Shown here piece after piece: positions 706 to 30,458 of a stretch of DNA of 43,223 nt; position 1 is the first letter of the stretch; each line of letters opens with the position of its first letter. Both the position numbers and the translations under genes were made by a program. Below the pieces are notes generated by a model. That model had not been told where the DNA came from. It saw only the letters and a program-made list of their open reading frames with translations, and did no database searches. Source of the stretch: Candidatus Nealsoniibacteriota bacterium (GTDB lineage Bacteria; Planctomycetota; Planctomycetia; Pirellulales; Thermoguttaceae); NCBI GenBank assembly GCA_013202865.1, contig JABMRB010000858.1, positions 1-43,223 on the forward strand, in the 5' to 3' direction.

Positions 706-748
706 AATATAACCGACCGTTTGAGAAGAAGAAACCAGAATCGCGTCC
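706..748 (-). promoter_or_regulatory. candidate promoter/operator copy E (CGGACGCGATTCTGGTT-N21-TATATT)
   Basis: AACCAGAATCGCGTCC at 733-748 and AATATA at 706-711, i.e. on the minus strand CTGGTT-N21-TATATT; same architecture as copies at 7827, 13779, 25036 and 30417. Weakest copy. Confidence 0.4.
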
Positions 749-881
749 GTTTATTGCCGTAATATCGTATACCCCCCTGCGGGGGGCGGCTTGTGCGTTG
801 CCGTGTGCAAGGGCACGGTTTCTGCGTATAATCGAGCCCGACTCGAAAACAACACCGCGTCTTCCTTGCCGACGATCTACC

Positions 882-2093
882 ATGAACCGCCGTTACCGCG
901 CATCCCGAAAGTCGTATCCCGAAGTGGCCGTGTTCGTCTCGTCGGCCGGCGTCTACGGACGTCGCCTGCTGGCAGGAGTCGCCGACTACATCGACCGTCA
1001 CGGACGGTGGTCCGTTTTTATCGATTCCTACGCGGCCGGACGCTTCGACAGCAAGTGGCTTCGCCGCTGGCAGGGCGACGGCGTGCTGGCTTTCATCGAG
1101 AACCGCCAGGACGCCCAGCGGTTGAAACGGCTGAAGATCCCGATCGTCGAAACCTACGGGCATTTGCGCGACCTGGGCCTGCCCCAGTTCGGCAACGACG
1201 AACACGCCATTGGCCGCGTGGCGGCCGAACATCTGCTCGAGCGCCGGTTCCGGAAGTTCGCCTTTTGCGGGTACCGCAACCAACCGTGGTCGCGGCGCCG
1301 ACACGAGGGCTTTGCCGAAGCGATTCAGCAGGCCGGGTTCTCCTGCACCCGTCACCTTACGGATCGCAAGCACAAGACCTTGCTCGATTGGCAGCGGGCT
1401 CGGCAGAAGCTTGTCGAGTGGCTCACCGAGATGCCTAAACCGCTTGCCGTGATGGCCTGTTCCGACCGTTGCGCCCAGCGCGTCCTCGATGCGTGTCGCC
1501 GGATCGAGCTGGCCGTGCCGGAAGAAGTGGCCGTCATCGGCGTGGACAACGACGAGACGCTGTGCCGGCTGTCCGACCCCTCGCTGAGCAGCGTGGCCGA
1601 CGATCCGCAACGGATCGGCTACGAGGCGGCCCGCCTGCTGGACGACCTGATCTCGGGCAAACGGCGGACGCGAGACTGCTTGCGGCCGAGGCTGTTTCCG
1701 CCTCGCGGCGTGGTCTCGTGCCGATCGACCGAGATCACGGTCGTCGACGACCCGGTCGTCGCCGAAGCGCTTACGGTGATCCACCGGCGCGCCCGGGAAA
1801 ACGTCACGGTCAAAGACGTGCTCCACGAGGTTGCCGTGTCGCGCAGCATCCTTTACGAACGCTTCAACAAAGCATTGGGGCGCTCGCCGCACGAGCACAT
1901 CATGCTCGTCCGCCTGCGGCGGGTGCAGGAGTTGCTCTTGCACACCTCCTGGCCGCTGCAGACGATTGCCCAAGAGACGGGTTTCGAGTACGCAGACTAC
2001 ATGGGGCGCGTTTTTCGCAAGCGTTTCGGCCTCACCCCCGGCCAATACCGTAGCCGCAACCGGCCCGCGGACGCAGATTCGGTGGGACCGTGA
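882..2093 (+). CDS. XylR-type transcriptional regulator (LacI-like sensor domain + C-terminal AraC HTH)
   Basis: ATG at 882 (MNRRYRASRKSYPEVAVFVSSAGVYGRRLL...); LacI-like GVDNDETLCRLSDPSLSSV; AraC-type C-terminus LLHTSWPLQTIAQETGFEYADYMGRVFRKRFGLTPGQYR. Confidence 0.88.
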   Translation: MNRRYRASRKSYPEVAVFVSSAGVYGRRLLAGVADYIDRHGRWSVFIDSYAAGRFDSKWLRRWQGDGVLAFIENRQDAQRLKRLKIPIVETYGHLRDLGLPQFGNDEHAIGRVAAEHLLERRFRKFAFCGYRNQPWSRRRHEGFAEAIQQAGFSCTRHLTDRKHKTLLDWQRARQKLVEWLTEMPKPLAVMACSDRCAQRVLDACRRIELAVPEEVAVIGVDNDETLCRLSDPSLSSVADDPQRIGYEAARLLDDLISGKRRTRDCLRPRLFPPRGVVSCRSTEITVVDDPVVAEALTVIHRRARENVTVKDVLHEVAVSRSILYERFNKALGRSPHEHIMLVRLRRVQELLLHTSWPLQTIAQETGFEYADYMGRVFRKRFGLTPGQYRSRNRPADADSVGP

Positions 2094-2176
2094 ATTGTAC
2101 GACGAAGCTCCGCCGGGAAATGGTTCAACCTCCCGTCTCGCGATCGAGCGGTTCGAGAATCGAAAGGAGCATTACG

Positions 2177-3619
2177 TTGCTCAAGCAAGCCGTGCCTGTT
2201 CTTCTGACTCTTGTCATTGTGCCATGCGTCGTCTGGACTGCCACGGCGGGTCGCGCCGATGCGCAGTACATGTTCGACGACATGAAAACTCACATGCCGA
2301 CCGGCACGCTCCATTTTGCCGACGACGGCGCGAGTTCCGCGATCAACGGGATCAATCGCCCGCCGGCGGTCTGTTTCAAGAACAAGACCTACGTCACGTA
2401 CCAAGGCGTGAACAACGCGCCGATGATTACGGTCTACGATCATGCCGCGAAGCAATGGGGGCCGCTGCTGAAGGCGGGGGCCAGTCCGCTTGGCGATACA
2501 GATACTCATGGCGCACCCTCAATGTTGATCGACAAGGAGGGCTATGTCCACCTCTTCTTCGGTTCCCACGGCGGCAAGCAGATGTACGTCAAGTCGCGCA
2601 ATCCGGAGGATATTACCGACTGGGTCGAAATGCCCCCGATCGTCGGCAACATGACCTATCCCAATGCCGTCGCTTTGGAATCGGGCGAGTTGGTGATGAT
2701 CGGCCGCACCGGGGGCGGACACGCGTCGCCCTGGGGGGAGATGTCCTCCCGAGACGGCGGTGCGACCTGGAGCGCCCCGAAGTCGATCGTCGACTACCGC
2801 CCGCATGGGATCTACGGCGCTACGACCGCCGGCACCGACGGCAAGACCCTCCATTTCGGCTGGTGTTTCCAGAACAAGCGCCTCACGGATAAGCACGCCT
2901 TTATGGACGTCATGCGAAAGAAGCAAAACTGGTGGACCGGCGTCTGGGACGAACGTCACCACGTGTTTTACGCCATGCGCGATGAGAAGGGCGTTTGGCG
3001 AAACGTCGAAGGACGAGCACTGAAGACGCCGATCGGCTTAGAGCAATCCTTTGAGCAGTGTCTCGTCTATCGCGGCGATTGGCCCGAGCACGGCCAGCAC
3101 CCGATTGTGGAGGTCGATTCGAACGATCGTCCTTGCCTGACGTTCGTCAATGGTCGTTTACCGGACGACCGCAAGCTCTGGACCGCCGATACGGTGGATT
3201 ATGACCAGAAGTTCGCAAGCTTTGACGGCACGAAATGGAACGTCTCCTCGATCACGCAGACCGATTCGATGTGGGATATGGGCCAGGCCGTCTTCTTCGG
3301 ACCCGAAAAGGGCCAGATCGACGTTTACCTCGTTGCGGGAGGTTCGAGGATCGACGGCAGAATCACGACCTACGGCCGCTGGGGCGGCGATATTCAACTC
3401 TGGCGGAGCTTGGACGACGGCAAGACGTGGAAGAAGCAGGCCGACGTCCACACTTTCCTGAGATCCGGACGGCTATTCAACTACCCGACGCGCGTTGTAA
3501 ACCATCATCCGGACGGAAGAATCGTCTTCGTGAACTTCACAACCGATCAAGGCTATCGCTCGAACGATTTTCGCCACAACGTTTATCTCTATGGCGATTC
3601 CGGCTTCTGCCGCAAATAG
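2177..3619 (+). CDS. BNR-4 repeat-containing secreted protein (sialidase-like propeller)
   Basis: Track ORF starts at a GTG (2090), but AAGGAG precedes an in-frame TTG at 2177 giving signal peptide LKQAVPVLLTLVIVPCVVWTATAGRADA; body has SxDGGxTW / LDDGKTW BNR motifs. Confidence 0.75.
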   Translation: MLKQAVPVLLTLVIVPCVVWTATAGRADAQYMFDDMKTHMPTGTLHFADDGASSAINGINRPPAVCFKNKTYVTYQGVNNAPMITVYDHAAKQWGPLLKAGASPLGDTDTHGAPSMLIDKEGYVHLFFGSHGGKQMYVKSRNPEDITDWVEMPPIVGNMTYPNAVALESGELVMIGRTGGGHASPWGEMSSRDGGATWSAPKSIVDYRPHGIYGATTAGTDGKTLHFGWCFQNKRLTDKHAFMDVMRKKQNWWTGVWDERHHVFYAMRDEKGVWRNVEGRALKTPIGLEQSFEQCLVYRGDWPEHGQHPIVEVDSNDRPCLTFVNGRLPDDRKLWTADTVDYDQKFASFDGTKWNVSSITQTDSMWDMGQAVFFGPEKGQIDVYLVAGGSRIDGRITTYGRWGGDIQLWRSLDDGKTWKKQADVHTFLRSGRLFNYPTRVVNHHPDGRIVFVNFTTDQGYRSNDFRHNVYLYGDSGFCRK

Positions 3620-6600
3620 GAAGGTTGCGGGCGATCGGTGACCCCGCGTGTGGTTGGCACGTGCCAGAACGTCTTGAAGTAGGCTTTGTCGGCGGCGTAA
3701 ACGTCGATCGGGTCCTTGGCCAAATCGAATGAGGCCGGCAGCACGCCGCAACGTTTCATCTCGCGGACGTAGTGGTGATTGGGCTTGAAGCCCGGCATGT
3801 CGAATCGCTTGATCTCGTTAAGCCTTGCCCGGGCCGCCTGGAGATGGACGAGGATCGTCCGGTAATCGGCGTCGTCGGGGTCGTCGAAGACGATCGGGTG
3901 ATGGATGGCGCCCGGGCGCTGGCCGCGGTTTTCGGCGACCTCTTTCGGCTCGGAGATTTCTGAGACCGGCAGTCCGTCGGCGTATCCGCCGGCCCGTTTT
4001 GAGAGGGCCGTCATGAGGAACAACGATTTCTCCGGTCGACTCAGGTTGAACACGCGATGCCGCGAATAGCGGCTCAGCGGCCGCCGCCAGGAGAGAAAAT
4101 CGTAATAGCTGTCCAGTGGAATGCCGGCCGTGACGTGATAGGGCAATTGCTTATTGGAGTGGCACGCGCCGCAACGCCGCGTGACGGCCTCCACGGCCGG
4201 ACCGGTCGAAGGCCAATCGTCGGCCAACTCGCGACTGAACTCGTGGTGCGCCCAGTCGCCGCCGACCTGGCCCGTGCCGTAGGCGGCGTAGGTGCCCGGG
4301 TACGTCGCTCCCACGTCGATCCAGAGCCGAACCAGCTTCTTTTCGTGCGGCGTGAGTTGCACGTCGTAGTGGCTCGGCTCGATCATCTTCATCAGCGGCG
4401 AGGCGGAACTGTAGGTCACGTAGGGCCGGTCGTTGCCGTACTGCCGACCCGAGTCGTTACGCGGAACGCCCTGCGTGTCCTTGATTTGCCAATTCAGGTA
4501 GAGCGAGTAATAACTCAGCGAAAAAACGGGCCCCCGATCGCCGCTGAGCACGATGGTTCCCGCGGGCTTGTCCGGGTTGTGGCACTTGACGCAATGGCGG
4601 TCGAAGATCGGCTGGATGTCGCGTGGAAAGTCCATGATTGGCGACACGTCGGCGATCGGCCTGATCTTGCTCGGCTCGCGGCTCATGGCCATCTGGCCGG
4701 TTCCGGGGCGCTGGCTAGGTGTCTGCTGACGCGGTTCATGGCAGCCGACGCAACTGAGCTTCTCGCCCGGCTGTAGTGTGACGAAGCTGCGCATCTGTTT
4801 GATCGACTTGCCGTTTTCGTCCAGCAGGGCGAAGTAGACGCTTCGCAAGGGCGGGACCTCGAAACAGGCCGACCCGTCGGTTTCGACCGGCACCGTGCCA
4901 AGGATTCGCTTGATGGTCGAGGTCACGCCGTGTCCGATCGGCTGCGACCCGCCGCCGGTGAAGTTGGCCGGCTTGGGCAGGTCTTCCATGACCAGCAGTT
5001 GCTTGACGGCCCCGCGCTGGACGCCAGCCATCTTCCGGCCCTCGTAGACGTCGCTGAGGAACACGGTGGCCGAATCCTGGGCCAGGTCGATTCGCGGCGA
5101 GAGGATCTGCTCGCGCGGTCGGCGGATGACGGGTCGCGGCTCTTGCACCGGATGGCCTTGGGCCGTGTAAAACGCCGAGGTTTCTCCGCGGCCGTTCATC
5201 AGGCCAATCGTATGGTCGTCGACGACCACCAGAAACGCGTCGGCCGAGAGCGGATAGGGATCGCGGTAGTTCTTGCCCCCGGTAATGTTTCGCATCGATG
5301 AAGTTTGGTTCGGTCCGTGCCGACCGGTGGCCACGGCGACGTGGCCAGCGTGTTCGTTCTGGCCATGGTGCGGGCTGTTGATCAACACGATCTGATCCGT
5401 GCCGGGGATCGGTCGGCCGTCGATGAACACGCCACCGGGGATCTGGTTGCCGTAATAGACCATTTGCCCGGTCCCGTCCGGGTTCATCGTCCACAGGTGG
5501 TGGAAGGTGACCGTATCGCGATTGACGTATTCCCAACGCGTATAAAGGACTCGTCCGTCGGGCAATACGGCCGGCGTGTTCTCGGTGAACGAACCGGACG
5601 AAAGCATGCGAATGTTCTTACCGTCGGAGTCGCAACGGTAGAGCACGGCCGTTTCGGCGTACCAGCAGCCGATCCAGCGATGGCATCGGGTCGAGCAGAA
5701 GACGATGTCGCCGTCGGGCAAGTAAGTCGGCTCGACGTCGTCGTCCGGCCCGTCGGTCAACTGCCGCAAGCCCGTGCCATCGCTGCCAATTTCATACAAG
5801 TGATAGCGATGCGTGCCGCCCTTGCGATAGGACAAAAGGATTTTCTGGGCGTCGTAGTGGACCTGCGGATCGCGGACCGCCCCGCCCGGGTCGTCGATCA
5901 GATCGGTCACCTTACCGGTGCGGAAGTTGAGCTTGGTCAGCCGCGTGCCGTCTTCCCCATAGAACCAGACGCTCGGATCGACGCACGAGTAGCCGAAGTT
6001 GGCGTAGTAATGGTTGGCCGTATCCCGACCGTGTCCCCGTTGGGCGAAAACGATCTCTTCGACGCTCAGTTCTTTCAAACGCTCGACCGCCGGCGGCTTT
6101 TGAGCCAACATGGCGTCGACTTGGGCCTGACGCTCTTGTGCCTGACGGGTTCTTCGGGCGAGGTGGGCCGCCTTCACTGCCTCCGCGCGGGCCGGCGCGT
6201 TGTATCGGGCTTGGACCTCTTTGGCCGAAAGGGCCCGATTCCAAATCGAGATTTCGTCGACGTACCCGCGAAAACGGAAGGCGTCATTCGCGTGCTTCGT
6301 GGCCGAGTCGCCGATCCCCAGGGCGTCGTCCGGTTCGCCGATGGTGCCGTCGAAGGTGGCCGTTCGGGTCAGATTCCCGTCCAAGTAGACGGCAAGCTTG
6401 CTAATGCTCGGGCTGTGTTCGTTACGTTCGGCCACGCCCACGAGGTGATGCATCTGGCCGACGGCGACCGAGCCGCCTTCGCAGAAGAGGTAGGTTCCGT
6501 CACTCTGGCCATGGCCGAGGCTGAGCAAGGTTTTGTTCAGTGCAAGCTGATACGAATAGGCCGGCCCGCCGCCCCATTTCATCACCAGCCGAGTCCATCC

Positions 6601-6933
6601 TCCGATCTGGGTGGGATAGACCCAGGCTTCGATCGTATAGCTGGGTCCCAGTTGTACGTCGGAGGAGCCTTCGTTGGACAGATACTGCGCATCGCCCGGC
6701 TCGACGCCCAAGGCGATCGCCCTGTCGAGGACACCCGGCAGTTCGTCGGCCGAGACGTACCGCGCCGCACCGCCGACGACATTCAAGTCGTCGCGCACTT
6801 CACCAGCCCGGTCGGCCGTCGAGCCGTTGAAATCCCAGTGGGCTACCAGCGCCTTCTCCGAAGGGACCTCGGTCCCGGTCGTCGACGCGGCACACAGGAC
6901 AACGAGCCAACACGTGGGAAACAGTTTCTTCAT
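3589..6933 (-). CDS. LamG + PD40 (TolB-like) + hydrazine-synthase-alpha-like multiheme cytochrome c protein
   Basis: N-terminal signal peptide and LamG (LVAHWDFNGSTADRAG...), PD40-type repeats, conserved VPVETDGSACFEVPPLRSVYFALLDENG...; three CxxCH motifs (CVGCHE, CVKCHN, CGACHS). Confidence 0.8.
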   Translation of the reverse strand: MKKLFPTCWLVVLCAASTTGTEVPSEKALVAHWDFNGSTADRAGEVRDDLNVVGGAARYVSADELPGVLDRAIALGVEPGDAQYLSNEGSSDVQLGPSYTIEAWVYPTQIGGWTRLVMKWGGGPAYSYQLALNKTLLSLGHGQSDGTYLFCEGGSVAVGQMHHLVGVAERNEHSPSISKLAVYLDGNLTRTATFDGTIGEPDDALGIGDSATKHANDAFRFRGYVDEISIWNRALSAKEVQARYNAPARAEAVKAAHLARRTRQAQERQAQVDAMLAQKPPAVERLKELSVEEIVFAQRGHGRDTANHYYANFGYSCVDPSVWFYGEDGTRLTKLNFRTGKVTDLIDDPGGAVRDPQVHYDAQKILLSYRKGGTHRYHLYEIGSDGTGLRQLTDGPDDDVEPTYLPDGDIVFCSTRCHRWIGCWYAETAVLYRCDSDGKNIRMLSSGSFTENTPAVLPDGRVLYTRWEYVNRDTVTFHHLWTMNPDGTGQMVYYGNQIPGGVFIDGRPIPGTDQIVLINSPHHGQNEHAGHVAVATGRHGPNQTSSMRNITGGKNYRDPYPLSADAFLVVVDDHTIGLMNGRGETSAFYTAQGHPVQEPRPVIRRPREQILSPRIDLAQDSATVFLSDVYEGRKMAGVQRGAVKQLLVMEDLPKPANFTGGGSQPIGHGVTSTIKRILGTVPVETDGSACFEVPPLRSVYFALLDENGKSIKQMRSFVTLQPGEKLSCVGCHEPRQQTPSQRPGTGQMAMSREPSKIRPIADVSPIMDFPRDIQPIFDRHCVKCHNPDKPAGTIVLSGDRGPVFSLSYYSLYLNWQIKDTQGVPRNDSGRQYGNDRPYVTYSSASPLMKMIEPSHYDVQLTPHEKKLVRLWIDVGATYPGTYAAYGTGQVGGDWAHHEFSRELADDWPSTGPAVEAVTRRCGACHSNKQLPYHVTAGIPLDSYYDFLSWRRPLSRYSRHRVFNLSRPEKSLFLMTALSKRAGGYADGLPVSEISEPKEVAENRGQRPGAIHHPIVFDDPDDADYRTILVHLQAARARLNEIKRFDMPGFKPNHHYVREMKRCGVLPASFDLAKDPIDVYAADKAYFKTFWHVPTTRGVTDRPQPSYLRQKPESP

Positions 6934-6981: not shown

Positions 6982-7770
6982 CTAATACTGCTTCAAGTAA
7001 CCGCCGTCCATGGCGATGGAAGTTCCGTTGAAGAACTCTCCGCGCGGGGAGGCCAGAAATGCAACAAAGGCGCCCAAGTCTTCCGGCTTGCCGAACTTGG
7101 CTGCCGGCGATAGTTTCTTCCAGTTGTCGAGGACCTGTTCGGTGGAAACGCCCTCCTCTTCCGCGTACTTTCCTGCCAGGTCCGTTACCAACGGCGTGTC
7201 GAAGTAGCCGGGGCAGAGCACGTTGGCCGTGACGCCGTCGGCGGCGGCTTCGGTGGCGATGCACTTCGAGAAACCGTTGATGCCCGTGCGAAGCGTGCTT
7301 TGCACGACCGACGATTCTTCCGGCTGCAATCCGGTTGCCGAGCCGATGTAGATCAGACGACCATAGTCGCGCTCTCTCATGCCGGGCAATAGGCCGCGGG
7401 TCAAGCTAATGGCCGGCCGCAGGATCAGGTCGATGCCCTCCTCCCAATGTTCGTCCGTTGCTCGGGTAAACGGGAACGTCGGCGGGTGGCCCGTGCTGAG
7501 CACGAGAATATCGACTGCTCCCAGCACGGCCTCGGCACGATCCAGCAATTCGCCGACTTCTTGCCGATTTCGCAGGTCGGCCGCAACGCCCGTGACTTGG
7601 CTGCCCGTCTCCTGGGCAATCTGCTCGGCGGCATTGTTGGCTCGATCGGCATCGCGGGAGCAGAGGACAACTCGAACACCCTCAGCAGCAAGCTCTTTGG
7701 CACAAGCAAAGCCCAAGCCGTAGCTTGCGCCGGTTACCAGGGCTGTTTTTCCGTTTAGTCCCAACTCCAT
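6982..7770 (-). CDS. SDR family NAD(P)-dependent oxidoreductase
   Basis: KTALVTGASYGLGFACAKELA Rossmann motif; C-terminal FNGTSIAMDGGYLKQY. Confidence 0.9.
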   Translation of the reverse strand: MELGLNGKTALVTGASYGLGFACAKELAAEGVRVVLCSRDADRANNAAEQIAQETGSQVTGVAADLRNRQEVGELLDRAEAVLGAVDILVLSTGHPPTFPFTRATDEHWEEGIDLILRPAISLTRGLLPGMRERDYGRLIYIGSATGLQPEESSVVQSTLRTGINGFSKCIATEAAADGVTANVLCPGYFDTPLVTDLAGKYAEEEGVSTEQVLDNWKKLSPAAKFGKPEDLGAFVAFLASPRGEFFNGTSIAMDGGYLKQY

Positions 7771-7826
7771 GGTACCGCCTATCTGTCGATTTACGGGGCT
7801 CTCTACGGAGAAGTTGCATCGGCATC

Positions 7827-8015
7827 AGCATAGCACGTCAAGTATCTCGCTTGAACCGGAGGATCGTCTTTTCTCGCCGGAATTTCGTCCGGGCCATTGA
7901 GATCGGAAAAGCGGTCTTCTCCTCGCCTGTCGGGTGTCGCGGAATCGTCGGACGAACTTCCGGCGAGAAAAGGACGTTTTTCCGGTTGCCAATTCGAGCG
8001 ATGACGCGATATCTT
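7827..8015. promoter_or_regulatory. bidirectional inverted-repeat intergenic module, copy A
   Basis: Left arm 7854-7892 and right arm ~7949-7987 are near-perfect inverted repeats. Minus direction CCGGTT-N21-TATGCT; plus direction CCGGTT-N22-TATCTT. Homologous along its length to 25036-25225 in inverse orientation. Confidence 0.7.
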
Positions 8016-8071
8016 GTTATCGACGCTAGAAAAGACTCGCCAGCTATGTTAAGAGCAAAGGAGAGGCCAAC

Positions 8072-8725
8072 GTGTTTGAGCGAATCGTCGCGATGGCCAT
8101 TGGGATTTCCGCAGTTCAGGCGGCTTGGGCCGCATCGCCGGAGGACGAAAAGACTGCCCAAGCAGTGGTCGACCTGATGGTCAAGGTCAACCGCTATCAA
8201 CGAGAGCATCCCTGGAGGGAGACGGACCGCGGTTGGATCCGCGCCACCTATTACACGGGAGTCATGGGACTTTACCGGACAACGAAAGATCCGGCCGTGC
8301 TCGAGCAGGCGCTCGCCTGGGCCAATAAGCACGGATGGCAGGCCGGCAGAGAAAGTCACCTTGTCAACGCGAACACGTGCGGCCAGACATGGCTGGAACT
8401 CTACTTCCTCGATCCGCAGCCTAAGCGCATCAAGCACGCCCGGGCCTACGCCGATAAACGTATTGCACAGGTCGCTGCGGGCGAGGCGATCCAAAAGGGC
8501 TGGGACTACGTCGATACGCTCTACGTCGGTCCGCCGACCTGCGCTATGCTCGGCAAGGCTACCGGGGAGAAGAAGTATTACGACTACATGCACCAGACCT
8601 ACTGGGAAGTGGTCGACCATCTGTTCGACAAGGAGTACGGACTGTTCTATCGCGACAAGAAGTACTTCGATGCGAAGACGGACAGCGGAAAGAAAGTCTT
8701 CTGGTCCCAGGGCAACGAGCCATGA
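8072..8725 (+). pseudogene. GH105/GH88-type unsaturated glucuronyl/rhamnogalacturonyl hydrolase, 3'-truncated
   Basis: AAAGGAG RBS and GTG start; WIRATYYTGVMGLYRTTKDP..., ends KKVFWSQGNEP* exactly where family members continue FWSRGNGW.... Confidence 0.7.
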
Positions 8726-10011
8726 AGCAATCGACTTGCAGCCGAAGAGGACTGCTCCGCCGAGCCGCGACCGCCGCTGTTGCACCGTACGCCATCACGT
8801 CCGCCGCCTTGGGTTCGCAGGACAAGCCGGCGGCTAGCGATCGGATTACGGTCGGGTTTATCGGCGTGGGCGCCCAAGGGATCGGTCAAAATCTGAAGAT
8901 GTTCCTGGCCCAGCCGGATGCCGAACCAGTCGCCCTGTGCGATGCCGACAGCCGACAGATCGACAAGGCGTTGAAAGCCGCGCGAGAGAAACGCGACGGA
9001 AGCTTCTCTTGCCAGACGACCCAGGACTGGCGTGAGGTCGTTGTTCGGGACGACATCGACGCGGTGATGATCTCCACGACCGATCATTGGCACGTGCCCA
9101 TCTCGTTGGCGGCCATCCGCACGGGCAAGGACGTGATCTGCGAGAAGCCGACCTTCACGCTTCAAGAAGGGCGGGTCTTGGCCGATGCTGTCAAGCGTTA
9201 CGGCACGGTGTTTCAGTTTGCCACGGAGGACCGCTCCTTGCCCATCTATCACCGCATGGCCGAGTTGGTCCGCAACGGCCGGATCGGCAAATTGCAGCGG
9301 ATCCACGCCGGCCTGCCGGCCCGACCACGCGTGCCGGGCGACCCCAAGCCGATTCCCGTGCCGCCGGAGTTGGATTGGCAGATGTGGCTCGGTCCGGCGC
9401 CCGACGCCCCGTTTCGCGACCGCTTGCATCCGGGCCATTGGCGTTGGGTCCACGACTACTCGGCCGGCGTGTTGGCCGATTGGGGCGCCCACCTGTTCGA
9501 CACGGCCCAATGGGCCGCCGACACCGAACGCACCGGGCCGGTCGAAATCGAGGGCACGGGCCAACGGTTCGAAAACGGCTACTACGATGCGTTCCACCAT
9601 TTCGACCTGACCTACACGTACGCCAGCGGCGTCGAGCTACGCGCCACCGCCGGACGCATATTCTTGCGATTCGAAGGGACCGACGGCTGGCTGGGCAACG
9701 ACGGCTGGAACACAAGAATACAGGCCAGTTCCCCCGAGGTTCTCAACAACCCGATCGGCCCTAACGAAACGCACCTGTTCACTTGCCCTCAGGGCGAGCA
9801 TCGCAACTTCCTCGACTGCGTGAAGAGTCGTCGCGACCCGTATTTCCCCGCCGAGATCGGCCACCGTTGTTGCAGCTTGGCCCACCTGGGCAACATTGCC
9901 ATGGAACTCGGCCGTAAGTTACACTGGGATCCCGACACCGAAACATTCCAAAACGACGAAACGGCCAACCGCATGCGAAGCAAAGCCATGCGCGAACCGT
10001 GGAGTTTGTAA
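8722..10011 (+). CDS. Gfo/Idh/MocA family oxidoreductase, TAT signal
   Basis: CSRRGLLRRAATAAVAPYAITSAALG signal; VGFIGVGAQG; DHWHVPISLAAIRTGKDVICEKP. Confidence 0.9.
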   Translation: MKQSTCSRRGLLRRAATAAVAPYAITSAALGSQDKPAASDRITVGFIGVGAQGIGQNLKMFLAQPDAEPVALCDADSRQIDKALKAAREKRDGSFSCQTTQDWREVVVRDDIDAVMISTTDHWHVPISLAAIRTGKDVICEKPTFTLQEGRVLADAVKRYGTVFQFATEDRSLPIYHRMAELVRNGRIGKLQRIHAGLPARPRVPGDPKPIPVPPELDWQMWLGPAPDAPFRDRLHPGHWRWVHDYSAGVLADWGAHLFDTAQWAADTERTGPVEIEGTGQRFENGYYDAFHHFDLTYTYASGVELRATAGRIFLRFEGTDGWLGNDGWNTRIQASSPEVLNNPIGPNETHLFTCPQGEHRNFLDCVKSRRDPYFPAEIGHRCCSLAHLGNIAMELGRKLHWDPDTETFQNDETANRMRSKAMREPWSL

Positions 10012-10025
10012 TTACCGTTTAGCGG
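9953..10025 (+). repeat. direct repeat, copy 1 (3' end of Gfo gene)
   Basis: GCATGCGAAGCAAAGCCATGCGCGAACCGTGGAGTTTGTAATTACCGTTTAGCGG (9971-10025) is identical to 12186-12240; similarity extends upstream with 3 mismatches. Confidence 0.95.
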
Positions 10026-10056
10026 GCGTGACACTCTTTTGACGAGATGAATAGCG

Positions 10057-12162
10057 ATGAAATGTACAGTTTTTATCCTGGTAAGTCTGTTTCTGCCGGG
10101 TTCTGTCTCGGTAGCACGTGATTTCCACATTTCACCGTCCGGTCGCGATGACAACCCGGGAACGCAGAACAAGCCCTTCGCAACGCTCGAACGTGCCAGG
10201 GACGGGATTCGAAAGCTCAAGGAGGCTCGTGGGCTCCCTGCCGGGGGCGTCACTGTATGGTTACACGGCGGGCGTTACCTTATCGAAAAGCCGTTTAAGC
10301 TTGCAGAAATCGATTCCGGCAAGAAGGGTTTATCCATCGTTTATCGTGCCGCCGGGGGTCAGCACGTCCGCCTTATTGGCGGGCGAGTGCTCAATAGCAG
10401 CGATTTCAAACCGGTTACGGACCAGGCTGTTCTCGATAGAATAATCGAACCGACCGCTCACTCGAAGGTGCTGCAATGCGACCTCAAGGCCTTGGGGATC
10501 AGCGACCTTGGCCAGCGCTGGCCGGATAGATTTCGCGGGCTGCTGAAGACTCCCTCGCTCTTCTGCGACGGACAGACGATGCGTGCGGCGCGTTGGCCCA
10601 ATGAAGGCTGGGCCCATGTGGAAAAGGTCCTCGATCGCGGCTCGCGCCCGCGGCACAAGGAGACGCCCGACAGGCCGGGCAAGGTGCGAATGGAGCAACA
10701 GAGGGTCGCCCGATGGGCCGCTTCGGTCGAGGACGGCGTCTGGCTCAACGGATACTGGGCATTCGACGGGTATGACGAGACGCTGCGTGTAAGCAAGATC
10801 GACGGGCGTGAGATTTCGTTCGTCCAGCCGCACCATTATGGGATCGGCCACGGGCATCCGGGACCGCGGCGATACTTCGCTAGGAATTTGATCGAGGAAC
10901 TCGACGCTCCGGGCGAATACTTCCTAGATACGAAGCGAGCTTTGCTCTACTTCATCCCGCCGGCGCCGATTCAGCAGTGCGAAATCATTCTGACTCAGGC
11001 GTTGGAGCCCTTGTTTCATACGCAGAACGCCTCGTATGTCACGATTCGCGACCTCTCGTTTGAGGCGACCTCTGCTGCAGCAATCCGGATTAGCGGTGGA
11101 CACCACAATCTTATTGCCGGATGCGCGATGAGCAGCATCAACGGCCATCGCGCCATCGAGCTTCTCGACGGAACCAAGAATAAAGTTCTCAGTTGCGATA
11201 TCAGTCAGATCGCAGGCGTCGGAGTCTACTGCCGCGGCGGCGACAGAAGGAGTCTGACGCCGGGTGAACATCTTGTCGAAAACTGCCACATTCATCACTA
11301 CGGCACGGTCCTCGGCGGCGCGGCCGTCGAGCTGCGCGGCGTAGGTAATACGGCCAGGCACAACCTGATTCATCACGGCGGCGGTTCCGTCGCGCTTGGC
11401 GGGAACAACCATCTGGTGCAGCTCAACGAGTTTCACAATATGTGCGACGGCCGTCACGACGGCGGGGCGTTCTACACTTTTCGCGGATGGTCAAACTGTG
11501 GGTCGGTCCTGCGGAATAACTATTTCCACGACATCACCGGGCTGAACGAGCCGGGCAAGGGCCACGGCGTGATGGGCGTGTATCTCGACGGGGCCTCGGG
11601 CTATACCATCGACGGCAACGTCTTCTACAAGGCGGGTACCCGCGCGGCGTTGTTCTCGAATTCCGGCGGGCCGAACATCTTTACCAACAATCTGTTTATC
11701 GACTGCCGCCGCGCCATTCAGCAAAAGGGGATCGAAAGAATCAACGACGCCCTGGCCGCCTCGATCAACGAACAGCGCCGATGGCTAGAAAACATCGGTT
11801 ACCGGCAAGGACCCTGGAAACAGCAGTTCCCGCACCTCGAATCCATGTTCGACGGCTTTCTCGAAAACGGCATGTCGCCGCGCGGAACCGTAATAGCAGA
11901 CAATGTCTTTATCGGCTGCAAGGAAAACCTCAGCCTGCAGCCGTTTCACAATGACCCCGACGAAATCACGCTGGTCAAACAGATAACTACCATCCGCGAC
12001 AACGTGGAAATGGATCAAGCCGAGATCGGCTTCGCTGATGCGATCGACAAGAACTGGCAAATCAAGAAGGATTCGCCCCTTTACAAGAAGTCTCCCGGCT
12101 TCAAGGTGATTCCGTTCGACAAGATAGGACTGTATGATGACGAGTACCGCACGACCCCATAG
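10057..12162 (+). CDS. right-handed parallel beta-helix protein (pectate-lyase-like fold)
   Basis: Signal peptide, FHISPSGRDDNPGTQNKPFATLERARDGIRKL, repeated beta-helix segments (NHLVQLNEFHNMCDGRHDGGAFYTF...). Confidence 0.88.
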   Translation: MKCTVFILVSLFLPGSVSVARDFHISPSGRDDNPGTQNKPFATLERARDGIRKLKEARGLPAGGVTVWLHGGRYLIEKPFKLAEIDSGKKGLSIVYRAAGGQHVRLIGGRVLNSSDFKPVTDQAVLDRIIEPTAHSKVLQCDLKALGISDLGQRWPDRFRGLLKTPSLFCDGQTMRAARWPNEGWAHVEKVLDRGSRPRHKETPDRPGKVRMEQQRVARWAASVEDGVWLNGYWAFDGYDETLRVSKIDGREISFVQPHHYGIGHGHPGPRRYFARNLIEELDAPGEYFLDTKRALLYFIPPAPIQQCEIILTQALEPLFHTQNASYVTIRDLSFEATSAAAIRISGGHHNLIAGCAMSSINGHRAIELLDGTKNKVLSCDISQIAGVGVYCRGGDRRSLTPGEHLVENCHIHHYGTVLGGAAVELRGVGNTARHNLIHHGGGSVALGGNNHLVQLNEFHNMCDGRHDGGAFYTFRGWSNCGSVLRNNYFHDITGLNEPGKGHGVMGVYLDGASGYTIDGNVFYKAGTRAALFSNSGGPNIFTNNLFIDCRRAIQQKGIERINDALAASINEQRRWLENIGYRQGPWKQQFPHLESMFDGFLENGMSPRGTVIADNVFIGCKENLSLQPFHNDPDEITLVKQITTIRDNVEMDQAEIGFADAIDKNWQIKKDSPLYKKSPGFKVIPFDKIGLYDDEYRTTP

Positions 12163-12167
12163 CGCCG

Positions 12168-12240
12168 ACGACGAAACCGTCAATCGCATGCGAAGCAAAG
12201 CCATGCGCGAACCGTGGAGTTTGTAATTACCGTTTAGCGG
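12168..12240 (+). repeat. direct repeat, copy 2: orphan 3' end of a Gfo gene
   Basis: Would encode ...DDETVNRMRSKAMREPWSL*; 55 bp identical to 9971-10025. Confidence 0.95.
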
Positions 12241-18790: not shown

Positions 18791-19417
18791 ATGCGTCTTT
18801 CATGTTTTGTTACGCTGATCTTACTTTGCCCCGTCGTGACGCTTGCCGAAGAAGGTTTTGTTTCTCTGTTCGACGGGAAGACCCACGATGGCTGGCAAGG
18901 CGACATCAAGGGCTATACGATCAAAGACGGCGTGTTGATCTGCGATCCCGGCCACAAGATCTTCACAAAGAAGGAGTATGCCGACTTCATCTTCCGCTTC
19001 GAGTTCAAGCTGCCCCCGAAAGGCTACAATGGCGTGGGAATTCGCGCGGCAACCAGTGGCGTTCAGGCATATAACGGCATGGAGATCCAGATCCTCGACG
19101 ATGGGCATGAGGTCTACAAGGATTTGCAGCCCTATCAGTATCACGGCTCGATTTACGGAGTTGTGCCGGCCAAGCGCGGAAGCCTGAAACCGACCGGCGA
19201 GTGGAACTGCGAAGAGATCCTGTGCCAAGGCAACCACGTGAAGGTCACGGTCAACGGCACGGTGATCGTCGACGCCGACTTGAGTAAAATCGACAAAACC
19301 AAGACGCTGGACGGCCAGAACCACTTCGGCTTGCACAACGAAAAGGGCTACATCGGACTCCTGGGCCACGGTTCGCCGGTCGAATTCAGAAACATCCGAA
19401 TCAAAGAACTGAAATGA
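18791..19417 (+). CDS. DUF1080 (3-keto-disaccharide hydrolase-type) secreted protein
   Basis: AAAGGAGGAG RBS; signal peptide; FVSLFDGKTHDGWQGDIKGYTIKDGVLIC; YHGSIYGVVPAKRGSLKPTGEWN. Confidence 0.9.
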   Translation: MRLSCFVTLILLCPVVTLAEEGFVSLFDGKTHDGWQGDIKGYTIKDGVLICDPGHKIFTKKEYADFIFRFEFKLPPKGYNGVGIRAATSGVQAYNGMEIQILDDGHEVYKDLQPYQYHGSIYGVVPAKRGSLKPTGEWNCEEILCQGNHVKVTVNGTVIVDADLSKIDKTKTLDGQNHFGLHNEKGYIGLLGHGSPVEFRNIRIKELK

Positions 19418-19457
19418 AGATGTAGGGTGGGTCGAGGAACGAAGACCCACGTCGTAG

Positions 19458-19518
19458 AATGACGAAGCACGAATGACGAAAGGAAGAAGCTTATTTCGTC
19501 ATTCGGATTTCGTCATTT
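19458..19518. repeat. intergenic inverted repeat (GAATGACGAA / TTCGTCATTC type)
   Basis: gaatgacgaagcacgaatgacgaaa ... tttcgtcattcggatttcgtcattt. Confidence 0.7.
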
Positions 19519-19603
19519 AGTGCTCGATTGCACAGTCGGGCAGCAAGACTATTAGACCATCCCATGGGATAGCATCACACCGAAGAAGTTGAAAGGTGAT
19601 ACG

Positions 19604-21040
19604 ATGCACGATTCAAAACAGCCGTCTCGTCGCGACATTCTCAAAGCGGGCGCGGCCGCCCTGGCGGCGCCGTATGTTATTACGTCCAACGCCTTGGGAG
19701 CCGAGGGACGACCGCCGGCCAGCGAGCGGGTCACTCTCGCTTATATCGGCATGGGGGGCAGGGGACGCGGCAACATGCAGGAGGCATTGTCCTGCGCCGA
19801 TGCACAGGTCTTGGCCGTCTGCGACGTTTGGGACCAACGGCGCGACTTGGCCAAGAGCATGGTGGATAAGCACTACAGCAGCACGGACTGCTCGGCCTAC
19901 GTCGATTTTCGCGAGATCTTGGCGCGCCGCGACGTCGACGCGGTGAGCATCGCCTCGCCCGACCATTGGCACGTACCGATGGCCGTGATGGCAGCCAAGG
20001 CCGGCAAGGACGTTTCGGTGGAGAAGCCGCTGGGGATGAGCGTTGCAGAGGACCAGATCTGTCGCGACGTAGTCAAACGATATGCGCGCGTGTTCCAATA
20101 CGGCTCGGAGGCCCGGATGAACGCCGCCGTCCGCTTCGGTTGCGAATTGATCCGCAACGGGCGCGTGGGCGAGCTTCGCGAAATTCGCGTCAAGGCTCCG
20201 ACCATGGACAGGATTGGGGTGCGCTATAGCAACGGAGCGTGGGTTCCCAGTTCGGACCCGAAAGTACACCGCTATATCCATGGGGTTCCACCGCAACCCA
20301 AGCCGGCGCCCAAGGGGTTGAACTACGATCTGTGGCTTGGTCCCGCGCCATGGCGGCCGCACGTAGGATGTCACGAGTTGGGCCATAACTGGTTCCACGT
20401 TTACGACTACTCCTTGGGTTTCATTGCCGGATGGGGCGCCCATCCGCTGGACCTGATGCAATGGGCCTTCGATACGCACCTGGACGGTCCCTGGGAAGTT
20501 GAAGGGACCGGCGCGATCCCCACTCCCGCGGAGGGCGTCAACGATGCGATCTTCCATTGGGACGTCCGGATTCGATTGGCCAGCGGCGTCACGATATCGT
20601 TCTTCGCGCACACCATGGCCAAGGACGAGCCGCCCGAATTTGCCCATGACCAGAGCAAGAATCCCTATCCGCAAATGCTTGGCGTCGCGGGGAATTACGT
20701 GCAGTTCATCGGATCCGAGGGCTGGATTGCCATTCCCTACAGCGGGGAGTACTGCTCGGAGCCGAAGTCGCTGTGCGAGGCGAAGTTGGGCCCCGACGCG
20801 GTCCGCCTGCCGGTGGGCACCGGGCAGGAAAGGAACTTTATCGAGTGTGTGCGAACTCGCAAGCAGCCCGTTTGTGACATTGACGATGCCGTGCGCACCG
20901 ACAGCCTATGCCATATCTCGGATATCGCGATCCGAACCGGTCGAAAGATTGTCTGGGACCCGATCAAAGAGGAAATCATCGGAGACGAAGAGGCTTCCCG
21001 CCGACTCAGCCGGGCGATGCGCGTGCCGTGGCAGATTTGA
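19604..21040 (+). CDS. Gfo/Idh/MocA family oxidoreductase, TAT signal
   Basis: PSRRDILKAGAAALAAPYVITSNALG; LAYIGMGGRGRGN; SPDHWHVPMAVMAAKAGKDVSVEKPLGMS. Confidence 0.9.
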   Translation: MHDSKQPSRRDILKAGAAALAAPYVITSNALGAEGRPPASERVTLAYIGMGGRGRGNMQEALSCADAQVLAVCDVWDQRRDLAKSMVDKHYSSTDCSAYVDFREILARRDVDAVSIASPDHWHVPMAVMAAKAGKDVSVEKPLGMSVAEDQICRDVVKRYARVFQYGSEARMNAAVRFGCELIRNGRVGELREIRVKAPTMDRIGVRYSNGAWVPSSDPKVHRYIHGVPPQPKPAPKGLNYDLWLGPAPWRPHVGCHELGHNWFHVYDYSLGFIAGWGAHPLDLMQWAFDTHLDGPWEVEGTGAIPTPAEGVNDAIFHWDVRIRLASGVTISFFAHTMAKDEPPEFAHDQSKNPYPQMLGVAGNYVQFIGSEGWIAIPYSGEYCSEPKSLCEAKLGPDAVRLPVGTGQERNFIECVRTRKQPVCDIDDAVRTDSLCHISDIAIRTGRKIVWDPIKEEIIGDEEASRRLSRAMRVPWQI

Positions 21041-24356: not shown

Positions 24357-24411
24357 GACACTACTCCATCTGGTGAAAAACTGCTAGCGACCTTAATCAA
24401 GGGATATAAAG

Positions 24412-24914
24412 TTAATTGGCAGACTCCTTCGTCGGCACTAGCCGCACGGCCATGCCTCCTTGGGCCGTCATGGCGGCCTTCAGAACGCTGTCGCTGCTGA
24501 CTTGCTGGCGGGTCACGCGGACCTTGGTGCGCGTGTCGACGGTCGGATCGTCGCTGTAGATATGAGCGTCGAACAGTTGGTCGGCAGGCAGGAAATCCAA
24601 GCGGACGTCGAGTGTGCGCGGCTGACCGGCGTTCATGCAGCCGATGAACCACTCGTCGCCGTGACGCCGCGCGATCACCGCATACTGCCCGATCCGGCCG
24701 TGTAGCACCTTGGGTTGTGGGCCACGCCCGGCTCGACGCGGATTTCCAACGCGTCGTCCTTGATTCGCCAGGCATCCGAGTTCTCTCGGAGCCAGATCCA
24801 GCCATCGGCCGGTTTGCTGTCGAAGGTGTCCTCGAAAACCACTTCCGGCTCGGCGGCCGAAAGCGACAGACTGAGCATCGGCAGGGCAACGGCAACAAGT
24901 AGCAAGCGTTTCAT
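24412..24914 (-). pseudogene. chimera: signal peptide + concanavalin-like N-terminus joined out of frame to a GH97 C-terminal domain
   Basis: Frame 1: MKRLLLVAVALPMLSLSLSAAEPEVVFEDTFDSKPADGWIWLRENSDAWRIKDDALEIRVEPGVAHN; frame 2 from ~24715: KVLHGRIGQYAVIARRHGDEWFIGCMNAGQPRTLDVRLDFLPADQLFDAHIYSDDPTVDTRTKVRVTRQQV.... Confidence 0.7.
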
Positions 24915-25035
24915 GAGGGAACTCCTTGGGGTGAGGTGGTTGCCAGCGAGACGACGGCATTTTGGGTTCAACCAATCATGTCTAATAAACTCCGTCTATG
25001 TCTACAGCCGTCCAGCATCTTCGAGCATCAGTATC

Positions 25036-25225
25036 AGGATATCGTGTCATCGATCGAGTTGGCAACCGGAAGAACGTCTTTTCTTACCGGGAAATCGTCC
25101 GGCAATATCCCGACACGCGACGGGCCCAGGAGGAGACCGGCTTCCGGAACTCAGTGGCCCGGACAGAATTCCGGTTTAGAAAAGACGATTTTCTGGTTCA
25201 AGAGAGCGACTTAGCTTGCTATACA
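25036..25225. promoter_or_regulatory. bidirectional inverted-repeat intergenic module, copy B
   Basis: Plus: GACGATTTTCTGGTT-N21-TATACA (25184-25225); minus: GACGTTCTTCCGGTT-N22-TATCCT (25078-25036). Same length as copy A (190 vs 189 bp). Confidence 0.7.
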
Positions 25226-25354
25226 GATAAGGAATGTGTGCCGGCTAGCGTTGCCCGCCGCGGCGGTCTGGTCGAGCCGTGCGAAAACGGCAAGTATCGG
25301 CCGTCGTGAGTTTTTGCCCTGGCGGCTCCCGCCCGTACCCTTTGGAGGTTCACC

Positions 25355-27658
25355 ATGTTTCGTCCCTGGTTACTGTTGGTTGCTTTGACCCTGTTTCCTG
25401 TGTTCCTTGTGGCGGCCGTTGCTACGGCCCAGGAGCCGGAGGAGCCGAGGCCCGCGTCGTCTGCTAATGTCCTGCAAAACAACGCGGCAGCGGTTGCCCC
25501 GCACGAAGCGGCCCGGCGGTTGCTCGAAAGACTCCTGCCCGAGAGGGCCGACGAGTTCGTCCTGGAAACGATCAGCGCCGAGGAGGGCAAGGACGTCTTC
25601 GAGATCGAAAGCGCCGGGGACAAGATCGTCATTCGCGGCAATAACGGCTTGGCGATTGCCACCGGGTTGAACTGGTATCTGAAGTATCACTGCGCCTGCC
25701 ATGTCTCGTGGGGCGGCACGCGGTTGGAACTGCCAAAGGTGCTGCCGAAGGTGGAGGGCAAGGTTCGTCGGGCCGCGTGGGCGAAGCACCGCTACTTCCT
25801 GAACTACTGCTGCTTCGGTTTCACGATGCCGTTTTGGGATTGGCAACAGTGGGAATGGCTAATCGACTGGATGGCGCTTAACGGCGTGAACACGCCGCTG
25901 GCGGTGACCGGGCAGGAGGCCGTGTGGCAGGCCGTGTGCAGGCGGCTGGGAATGTCCGAACAGCAGATCGACGAGTTCCTGGCCGGCCCGCCGTATCTGT
26001 CGTTCAGTTGGATGGGCTGCATGGACGGCTTTGGCGGGCCGCTGCCACAAAGTTGGATCGACAGCCACGTCAAACTCCAGCAGAGAATCCTTGCCCGCCA
26101 ACGCGAGTTGGGTATGACGCCCGTCCTGCAGGGCTTTACCGGCCACGTGCCGCCGGCCGTCAGGCAGAACTTTCCCGACGCCAAGCTGCACAATATCCGC
26201 TGGGTCCAGTGGGAAACGGACCTGCTCGATCCGCTGGATCCGTTGTTTGCGAAGATCGCGGAAATGTACATGCAAGAACAGGCCAAACGTTTTGGCACCG
26301 ATCATCTGTACGCGGCCGACACCTTCGTCGAGCAGGTGCCGCCCAGCGGTGACCCGAAGTACCTGGCCGACGTGAGCCGGGCGACTTACAGCGGGATGAC
26401 CAACAGCGATCCAGATGCGGTGTGGGTCTTTATGACCTGGCCGTTCAGGTACAAGCAAGGTTGGTGGCACCAGGATCGCATTCGAGCGTTTCTTGGTGCA
26501 GTGCCGCATGAACGGATGCTGTGTCTGGATCTGTTCTGCGAGACGGGACCGCAATGGAGCCGCACGAAGGCATTCTATGGAAAGCCGTGGTTATGGTGCA
26601 ACATTCAAAACTTCGGCTGGCGAATCAATCTCGGCGGAGATCTCCAGAACATGGCCACCGAGCTGTCCGCCGAAGCGCGAAAGGACCCGGCCCACGGCCA
26701 ACTGGTCGGTCTGGGCGTTGTCAACGAAGGGCTTGGCTACAACCCGGTCGCTTACGACCTGATGTTCGAGTTGGCTTGGCGCAACGAACCGGTCGACCTG
26801 AAGCAATGGCTGCACGGCTACGCCCGCCATCGATACGGTCGGGCCAATGATCAGGCCGACGCAGCCTGGGCGATCCTCATTAGCACCGTACATCCTGCAC
26901 CCCGGCCGTGCGACCGCCGCTACGTCATCGGCCACGTGCCGACGCTCAAACCGATCAAGGGCCAGCCCTACGATAACGCCCAACTGGCCGAGGCCTGGCG
27001 ACTGCTGCTCGATGCGGCCGAAGAGCTTGGCGATGGGGCTCCCTACCGGTTCGACCTGGTCAACGTCGCCCGCCAGGTACTCTCCAACCACGCCACGAAG
27101 ATGCACCAGGATATCATCGCGGCGCACCAGGCTAAGGACGTCGAGGCCCTGCAAGAAGCGTCCGACCGGTTGCTGCAGTTGATCCGCGACCTGGACGAAC
27201 TCGTGGCTACGCGCGAGGAGTTCCTGCTGGGTCCCTACCTGGAAGACGCCAAGCGCTGGGGGACCACCGACGCCGAGCGGGCAAAGTTCCAGTGGAACGC
27301 TCGACGCATGGTGACCGCCTGGGGCTCCATCGAGAAGTATAATGAGTGGAGTTATGGACTCCGCGACCTATGTTACAAGGAATGGTCCGGCATGCTCAGC
27401 GGATTCTACCTGAAACGCTGGCAGTGGTACCTCGACGAGTTGGCCGCGGCGCTGAAGCAAGGCAAGACGTTTGATGACACGGCCGTCAGCCGGAAGACGT
27501 GGGAGTGGGAGCTGAAATGGGCCGACAATACGGACACCTATCCCACCGAGCCCCGCGGCGACAGCGTCGAAGTGGCGCGCCGCCTGTGGAAGAAATACGG
27601 CAACGCTCTCGGACTTGATGCGGATAACCAAGGTGCGGGAACATGGCGTCCGGAATAA
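25355..27658 (+). CDS. alpha-N-acetylglucosaminidase (GH89, NAGLU-like), secreted
   Basis: GNNGLAIATGLNWYLKYHCACHVSWGGTRLELP; FTMPFWDWQQWEWLIDWMALNGVNTPLAVTGQEAVWQAV; LQGFTGHVPPA. Confidence 0.93.
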   Translation: MFRPWLLLVALTLFPVFLVAAVATAQEPEEPRPASSANVLQNNAAAVAPHEAARRLLERLLPERADEFVLETISAEEGKDVFEIESAGDKIVIRGNNGLAIATGLNWYLKYHCACHVSWGGTRLELPKVLPKVEGKVRRAAWAKHRYFLNYCCFGFTMPFWDWQQWEWLIDWMALNGVNTPLAVTGQEAVWQAVCRRLGMSEQQIDEFLAGPPYLSFSWMGCMDGFGGPLPQSWIDSHVKLQQRILARQRELGMTPVLQGFTGHVPPAVRQNFPDAKLHNIRWVQWETDLLDPLDPLFAKIAEMYMQEQAKRFGTDHLYAADTFVEQVPPSGDPKYLADVSRATYSGMTNSDPDAVWVFMTWPFRYKQGWWHQDRIRAFLGAVPHERMLCLDLFCETGPQWSRTKAFYGKPWLWCNIQNFGWRINLGGDLQNMATELSAEARKDPAHGQLVGLGVVNEGLGYNPVAYDLMFELAWRNEPVDLKQWLHGYARHRYGRANDQADAAWAILISTVHPAPRPCDRRYVIGHVPTLKPIKGQPYDNAQLAEAWRLLLDAAEELGDGAPYRFDLVNVARQVLSNHATKMHQDIIAAHQAKDVEALQEASDRLLQLIRDLDELVATREEFLLGPYLEDAKRWGTTDAERAKFQWNARRMVTAWGSIEKYNEWSYGLRDLCYKEWSGMLSGFYLKRWQWYLDELAAALKQGKTFDDTAVSRKTWEWELKWADNTDTYPTEPRGDSVEVARRLWKKYGNALGLDADNQGAGTWRPE

Positions 27659-29164: not shown

Positions 29165-30344
29165 AACGATGACCGGACGGCAGCGGCTGCAGACGGCTAT
29201 AAGTGGCGGCCAGGCGGATCGCGTACCTTGGGCGCCGTTGATCGATCCCTACTTCCTGGCTTCACTGCCGGAGAGCTTCCAGCGGGAGCATTTCGGCGCG
29301 ACGACCGACCAGGGCGACACGGTCACCGAGCCGCTCTATCTGTCCGACACGTGGCGGAGGCGCGTGATCGACTTCACGAAACACATCGGCGCCGACGTCT
29401 TCCAGCGACACGCTCCGGGGTTGGTCATGCGTGTCGAGGATCTGCACATCGAGCAGAGCCCGCAAGGCCGCGAAATTGTCCGCCGGCACGTTACCCGCCG
29501 CGGCGTATTGACCGACGTGGTTTACAGCGTGCCCGAATCACCCAACTACCCGTTCTACGGCAAAGAGTACAAGCTGAAGACAGTCGAAGATCTCGGCGTC
29601 TATCGCTACATTTGGGAAAACACCCATTTCGAGTCGGACTACCCGGCCTTCTTGGCCGAGGAGGCGTACATCGGCGACGCCGGGCTGGCGGCCATCGACG
29701 GGCCGCAAAGCGCCGTGCAACTGCTCTTGGGCGAAGAAGCCGGCATGTCCAACTTCTATGCCCTGCTTCAGGATCATCCCCGGGAAATCGAGATGCTCAT
29801 CGAGGCCATGCACGCGAAGATCCGCCAGGCGTATCACGTCATCGCCCAGTCACCGGCAAAGGTCGTGGTAGCCATGGAAGACCTTTCCAGCACCACCTCT
29901 TCGCCGGCCATCTTCGAGCGGTTCAGCTGGCGGCATCTCAACGAGTATGCCGACATCGTACACGCGGAAGGTAAGACGTTTCTGGCCCACATGTGTGGGC
30001 GGCTGAAAGCCATGGCCCCGTTGATCGCCCAGAGCCGTCTCGACGGCGTGGAGTCGCTCACCCCGCCGTCAATCGGTGACCTCAGCGTCGCGCAGGCCCG
30101 GCGGCAATGGGGGCAGCGGAGAATCCTGATCGGCGGCCTGGATGCCAACCTGATGCTTCAGGCCGACCAGCAAGAAGTCCGCACGGCCGTGCTGGACGTG
30201 CTCGGACAGGCCGGTGACGGAACCCACTTCGTGTTGAGCAACGCAGACGCGATGCCTCACGGCGCGCGGCTCGATACACTGCAGACCATCGCCGAAGTGA
30301 CGCAGCAGCATGGTCGGCTGCCCTTGGCCGGCGGCCACAACTGA
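29157..30344 (+). CDS. uroporphyrinogen decarboxylase (UroD)-like methyltransferase family protein
   Basis: ATG 29157 overlaps MFS stop (8 nt); GRQRLQTAISGGQADRVPWAP; EGKTFLAHMCGRLKAMAPLIAQSRLDGVESLTPP. Confidence 0.85.
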   Translation: MAETMTGRQRLQTAISGGQADRVPWAPLIDPYFLASLPESFQREHFGATTDQGDTVTEPLYLSDTWRRRVIDFTKHIGADVFQRHAPGLVMRVEDLHIEQSPQGREIVRRHVTRRGVLTDVVYSVPESPNYPFYGKEYKLKTVEDLGVYRYIWENTHFESDYPAFLAEEAYIGDAGLAAIDGPQSAVQLLLGEEAGMSNFYALLQDHPREIEMLIEAMHAKIRQAYHVIAQSPAKVVVAMEDLSSTTSSPAIFERFSWRHLNEYADIVHAEGKTFLAHMCGRLKAMAPLIAQSRLDGVESLTPPSIGDLSVAQARRQWGQRRILIGGLDANLMLQADQQEVRTAVLDVLGQAGDGTHFVLSNADAMPHGARLDTLQTIAEVTQQHGRLPLAGGHN

Positions 30345-30416
30345 GAAACCGCTCGCGTGGCCGGGGGCAAGAGGCAAATCCAGCGACTCGCCCGGACGAA
30401 GTCGCGGTTAGATAAG

Positions 30417-30458
30417 GCCGATTTTCCGGTTGCAATCGAGACCCGCGACACTTATGTT
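30417..30458 (+). promoter_or_regulatory. candidate promoter/operator copy D
   Basis: GCCGATTTTCCGGTT-N21-TATGTT; upstream CGCCCGGACGAAGTCGCGGTTAGATAAG also matches; 85 nt before CDS 30543. Confidence 0.55.

Follow-up and report, generated by a model that had tools for sequence, protein, structure and literature searches.

A short sequence element recurs in front of seven genes of a planctomycete carbohydrate-degradation cluster, which raises the question of what kind of control element it is and which protein might read it. The window, that is, the whole stretch of DNA that was analysed, is an entire contig of 43,223 nucleotides (C729) from a 9.1-Mb metagenome-assembled genome (MAG) that is 81% complete. 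A sequence-only reading had described a recurrent box followed at nearly fixed distance by TATRNT, and had considered an activator site or the promoter of an alternative σ factor plausible.

A direct repeat joined to a predicted promoter

Inspection of the sequence confirmed all seven sites, including their positions, strands and spacings, and every copy indeed faces a downstream gene. The box has the 15-bp consensus GACGATTTTCCGGTT in its seven occurrences. Six copies are strong and one is weak (706-748), and at each of the seven a hexamer of the type TATNNW follows 21-23 nt after the end of the box. When the six strong boxes were scored by leave-one-out matrices, no 15-mer with an equal score was found on either strand of 1 Mb of random sequence with the same dinucleotide content as the real sequence. 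A chance origin of the box is excluded.

Most copies had also been reported to follow a conserved block, CCGGACnnAATTC....AGAAAA. The conservation is real, but the block is not a separate motif: its sequence, CCGGACGAAATTCCGG, is the box once more. Comparing the box with the DNA upstream of it, matches peak only at lags of 21 and 22 (61 of 91 positions, taking the better lag for each site), while pairs of lags without 21 or 22 gave 14-29 matches. Two ∼15-bp half-sites of the form GACG-N5-CCGG-TT thus make up the element, in direct orientation and with a period of 21 or 22 bp, which corresponds to two helical turns. The element reads GACGAAATTCCGG, then a mostly A-rich linker (AGAAAA), then GACGATTTTCCGG. 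Across the sites, the downstream half (half B) is more conserved than the upstream one (half A). A joint model of half A, N6-7, half B, N20-23 and TATNNW, trained on the six strong sites, gave these sites scores of 46.6-49.3, whereas 2 Mb of random sequence reached 21.2 at most. The weak site at 706-748, which was held out of the training, reached 31.0; since this exceeds the random maximum, we regard it as genuine, too.

The seven hexamers are TATATT, TATGCT, TATCTT, TATGCT, TATCCT, TATACA and TATGTT. As a description of this −10, TATNNW is better than TATRNT. Because the box ends 21-23 nt before the −10, its TT starts the −35 at several sites. This is the case at five of the seven, with a spacing of 17-18 nt: TTGCAA-17-TATGTT at 30417, TTGCCA-18 at 7973 and 25036, and TTCAAG-17 at 7827 and 25184. 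A separate promoter scan recovered the identical TTGCCA-18-TATCCT pair at the 25036 site. The −35 hexamers match the consensus poorly, and the downstream half-site abuts or overlaps them. We also considered a riboswitch or another RNA element and rejected it: Rfam gave no match, and the element is located upstream of the −10.

Half A is partly palindromic at some sites (CCGGA-N6-TCCGG). It could thus be the target of a repressor that blocks the −35, all the more as the sensor domain of the regulator encoded nearby (see below) is LacI-like and the inverted repeat is exact at 7827 and 25184 and partial at some other sites. But the dyad is gone at 13805 and 706, where the direct repeat is retained, and the strongly conserved half B is not palindromic. 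Furthermore, inverted-repeat scores of the whole element do not exceed 37 of 91, well under the 61 of the direct repeat. A repressor of this kind is therefore improbable.

Seven sites and the genes behind them

The weak site (706-769, minus strand; half A 755-769, half B 733-747, −10 TATATT 706-711) shows a direct repeat at lag 22 with 8 of 13 matches. It is located between a XylR-type regulator gene and a divergent open reading frame for a putative secreted protein with a signal-like N-terminus, which runs off the contig (2-388, minus strand) and starts ∼317 nt downstream of the site. Two strong sites form a divergent pair. The minus-strand copy (7827-7889; half A 7875-7889, half B 7854-7868, −10 TATGCT 7827-7832) precedes a short-chain dehydrogenase (SDR) gene (6982-7770, minus strand; PF00106). 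Its plus-strand partner (7951-8015; half A 7951-7965, half B 7973-7987, −35-like TTGCCA, −10 TATCTT 8010-8015) precedes a GH88/GH105-like hydrolase gene (8072-8725, plus strand). This open reading frame matches the family profile PF07470 in its N-terminal part only (positions 11-203 of 352), overlaps the gene at 8722 by 4 nt and is possibly truncated. The next site (13783-13848, plus strand; half A 13783-13797, half B 13805-13819, −10 TATGCT 13843-13848) faces a gene for a galactosamine/glucosamine-6-phosphate isomerase-like (NagB-like) protein (13898-14800, plus strand; PF01182), which scores 256.8 bits against NCBIfam PRK09762, slightly below the cut-off of 271.

A second divergent pair follows. 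Its minus-strand copy (25036-25099; half A 25085-25099, half B 25064-25078, −35-like TTGCCA, −10 TATCCT 25036-25041) is a well-kept operator in front of a broken gene (24357-24914, minus strand). According to the translations, a signal-bearing N-terminus and a GH97 C-terminal domain (PF14509, GH97_C, E=1.9e-24) are in different frames. The plus-strand copy (25162-25225; half A 25162-25176, half B 25184-25198, −10 TATACA 25220-25225) precedes a GH89 α-N-acetylglucosaminidase gene (25355-27658, plus strand; PF05089/PF12971/PF12972). The last site (30395-30458, plus strand; half A 30395-30409, half B 30417-30431, −35-like TTGCAA, −10 TATGTT 30453-30458) precedes a gene for a protein with a hydrazine-synthase-α-like (HZS-α) middle domain (30543-33110, plus strand; PF18582). 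The same domain occurs in a second large protein of the carbohydrate cluster (3589-6933, minus strand), and both proteins stay far under the score that NCBIfam requires of a true hydrazine synthase. The regions 8722-21040 and 33205-34560 encode several Gfo/Idh/MocA oxidoreductases together with a TIM-barrel AP_endonuc_2 protein and a 3-keto-disaccharide hydrolase, a set that suggests oxidative (3-keto) glycoside cleavage.

The two divergent promoter regions are inverted duplicates: positions 7773-8071 align with the reverse complement of 24976-25354 over much of their length, pairing 7973 (plus) with 25036 (minus) and 7827 (minus) with 25184 (plus). Therefore, the seven sites amount to about five independent ones. 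A whole bidirectional promoter region has been copied in inverted orientation inside the cluster, and both operators were carried to new genes.

Occurrence in the genome and in relatives

The genome was scanned with a covariance model of the full element, built from sequence without structure, and by pattern searches. In all 9.1 Mb, the covariance model found only its six training sites (E ≤ 4e-13), with the next best hit at 0.14. The weak 706 site was missed by this search and has E = 0.1 even at the scale of the window, so that the scan excludes further strong sites only; weaker, 706-like sites, to which the search is blind, are possible elsewhere in this 81% complete MAG. The box-only pattern with three mismatches gave 646 matches compared to 403 for the reversed control, a comparison that is uninformative because reversal alters the dinucleotide composition. 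Searches with the trained model gave no credible copy in 60 relatives, and the order, sampled with 397 genomes, gave none either. Four weak hits, the best of those obtained there, were inspected; they are located inside or among predicted coding sequence, and none has a XylR-type gene nearby.

The inverted duplication might indicate a mobile or structural repeat that is dispersed in the DNA and has no part in regulation. The copies of such a repeat would be scattered without regard to genes, and copies mainly inside genes or in downstream regions had been named as its sign. Instead, the strong copies are confined to this contig and every copy lies before a gene with a promoter in phase. Moreover, the sequences around the element show little similarity at 13805, 30417 and 706, and Rfam gave no match. 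We consider this explanation very unlikely.

An alternative (e.g., ECF) σ factor with GACGATTTTCCGGTT as its recognition element would account for the near-constant spacing to a conserved hexamer. But the hexamer TATNNW is σ70-like, the box is present twice, two helical turns apart, and the gap varies by 2 nt. A genome-wide promoter set was not found, the strong copies being restricted to one 43-kb contig, and no σ factor was recognised in the window. With a σ70-like −10, a direct-repeat box and strong copies on this contig only, this part of the earlier proposal is unsupported, and we give it very little probability.

A XylR-type regulator next to the weak site

Among the proteins of the window, a single one was recognised as a DNA-binding regulator: the XylR-type protein of 882-2093 (plus strand), which the sequence-only reading had named as one candidate binder. 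The reading frame is open from 798, with a likely ATG start at 882. Pfam identifies a XylR N-terminal PBP1 domain, a Peripla_BP_3 sensor and an AraC-family HTH_18 domain (PF22177, 33 bits with a cut-off of 27; PF13377; PF12833), and both HTH_18 and HTH_AraC match within 798-2093. This combination of an N-terminal PBP1 domain, a periplasmic-binding sensor and a C-terminal AraC HTH defines the XylR subfamily. In agreement with this, the E. coli XylR structures 4fe4 and 4fe7 match the protein with E=1.7e-54 over ∼375 residues (4fe4 over residues 47-421).

The anatomy of the element resembles operators of AraC/XylS-type activators. The XylS operator consists of two 15-bp direct repeats of two boxes each, with 6 bp between the boxes (TGCA-N6-GGTA) (PMC5481539). 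XylS/Pm of the TOL plasmid thus shares the two 15-bp repeats with two boxes each, but differs from the window in sequence and sensor domain. The reference list of the same article includes a paper whose title reports that the Pm sites of XylS and RNA polymerase overlap (PMC5481539). The MtlR operator, AGTGC-N5-AGTAT-N7-AGTGC-N5-AGGAT, has a period of 22 and an A-tract after the first repeat (PMC4514859). PmtlE of Pseudomonas fluorescens is therefore alike in its 5+5+5 bp half-sites, the N7 between them (period 22) and the A-tract. The sequence is different, the sensor of MtlR is AraC-like whereas that of the window regulator is LacI/PBP1-like, and PmtlE has its weaker half downstream, while the downstream half is the more conserved one across our sites.

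For E. coli XylR, our comparison draws on the E. coli sequence and general knowledge. When the DNA between xylA and xylF was scanned, the direct repeats that scored best had a lag of 21, one at each promoter, and the repeat read on the xylA strand continues into a −35-like TTGAGC. Both systems combine a PBP1-like XylR sensor with an AraC HTH and tandem half-sites 21 bp apart. In contrast, the E. coli half-site is TGTGAAATAACATAAT-like instead of GACGATTTTCCGGTT, it serves one divergent promoter pair instead of seven promoters in one cluster, and the two regulators are only ∼30% identical.

Tandem repeats at other XylR-type loci

The generality of this arrangement was tested at 67 loci, nearly all picked for their XylR-type genes, by searching for promoter-like elements that occur in pairs and contain direct repeats. 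At a period of 21/22, four loci (the window, L199, L220 and L222) reached p ≤ 0.01. Since control periods gave 0-4 loci at this threshold, mostly loci ringing at several periods (L112, L213, L220), the number of loci is by itself weak evidence. The individual cases L199, L220 and L222 are clear. Each has a pair of 21-22-bp tandem repeats before open reading frames, with a −10 at 22-23 nt, beside a XylR-type gene, and the repeats differ between the loci, as expected if each regulator has a private operator. L199 carries two copies, each before an open reading frame; one of them lies in the intergenic region on the divergent side of the regulator. A search of this 6.4-Mb single-contig genome gave exactly two matches to the pattern, both beside the regulator. 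In L220, the element TGACGCAAAATGCCA-N7-TGACGC(A/G)AAAAATCA occurs in two copies, each before an open reading frame downstream of the regulator, and is absent elsewhere in that genome. In L222, two copies flank the regulator, and there may be a third, weaker one.

No comparable repeat was found in the short 8.7-kb contig of L198, which encodes the closest homologue of the regulator (56% identical). Footprinting of 12 orthologous XylR loci of one family (L200-L210, L212) gave no better result at period 21/22 than at control periods, and a direct-repeat scan without restriction to intergenic regions was too noisy. Laminin-G-like proteins with PEP-CTERM sorting signals are encoded near the tandem-repeat promoters of L220 (3920-4915) and L222 (919-1839); XylR-type regulators may thus also control surface or exported proteins.

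A tandem operator of the AraC/XylS type could still be bound by a different regulator encoded elsewhere, as this incomplete MAG carries at least three XylR paralogues and one further AraC-HTH match. But all strong sites found in the genome share a contig with the XylR-type gene, the held-out weak site adjoins that very gene, and the tandem repeats of the three relatives adjoin their own XylR-type genes. We therefore regard another binder as unlikely, though less so than a repressor. Anatomy, location, locality and the parallel cases all point to the protein at 882 as the probable binder.

Discussion

We consider it likely that the element is a private two-part operator of the local XylR-type activator, which would switch on seven promoters of the carbohydrate-degradation cluster. 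Of the two possibilities raised originally, the activator operator thus agrees with the anatomy, location and locality of the element and with its parallels. It displays what characterises class II operators of the AraC/XylS type: direct-repeat half-sites of ∼15 bp at a period of ∼21-22 bp, a promoter-proximal half that abuts or overlaps the weak −35 of a predicted σ70-type promoter, and a nearby, presumably cognate gene for an AraC-HTH regulator.

We infer binding, activation and the identity of the ligand from this arrangement and propose the following mechanism. The element would be a two-half-site operator fused to a σ70-type promoter, each half-site offering one major-groove contact box to each of the two HTH motifs of the AraC-type DNA-binding domain. 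The protein encoded at 882-2093 would sense a sugar ligand, and its dimer would fill both half-sites. Bound to its ligand, the dimer would contact RNA polymerase at the overlapped, poor −35 and hold it there (class II activation), so that the local carbohydrate genes would be turned on jointly. The position of the weak 706 site between the regulator and the gene at 388 might allow autoregulation. With GH88/105, GH89, NagB-like, SDR, HZS-α-domain and other proteins encoded behind the operators, the ligand is probably not simply xylose; because of this set of targets, our guess is that it may be an amino sugar or a uronide instead.

The element had been called undescribed. Within the literature searched this holds for its sequence, but not for its architecture, which is the known layout of AraC/XylS-family activators. 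No operator or regulon of planctomycete XylR-type regulators was found described in that literature. The kind of mechanism is therefore known, while the operator sequence, the regulon and the host group appear to be undescribed there.

Planctomycetes hold large sets of sugar-degradation genes, and the operator joins seven promoters into one candidate regulon; its targets, enzymes for amino sugars and uronic acids, yield candidates for the ligand. For uncultured relatives, tandem 15-bp repeats of period 21-22 with a −35 at their end and an adjacent XylR-type gene provide a rule for regulon searches. XylR-type regulators are expanded in Planctomycetota, with up to 25 strong matches per genome among those analysed. 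Tentatively, and with somewhat less than even confidence, we suggest that each of these regulators has a private tandem operator at its own locus, so that the pairing of domain and operator would be a specificity code readable from the genome. If this is true, the window would be its best-populated example, in which a single regulator would serve seven promoters, and the inverted, duplicated bidirectional promoter would have spread the circuit to new genes.
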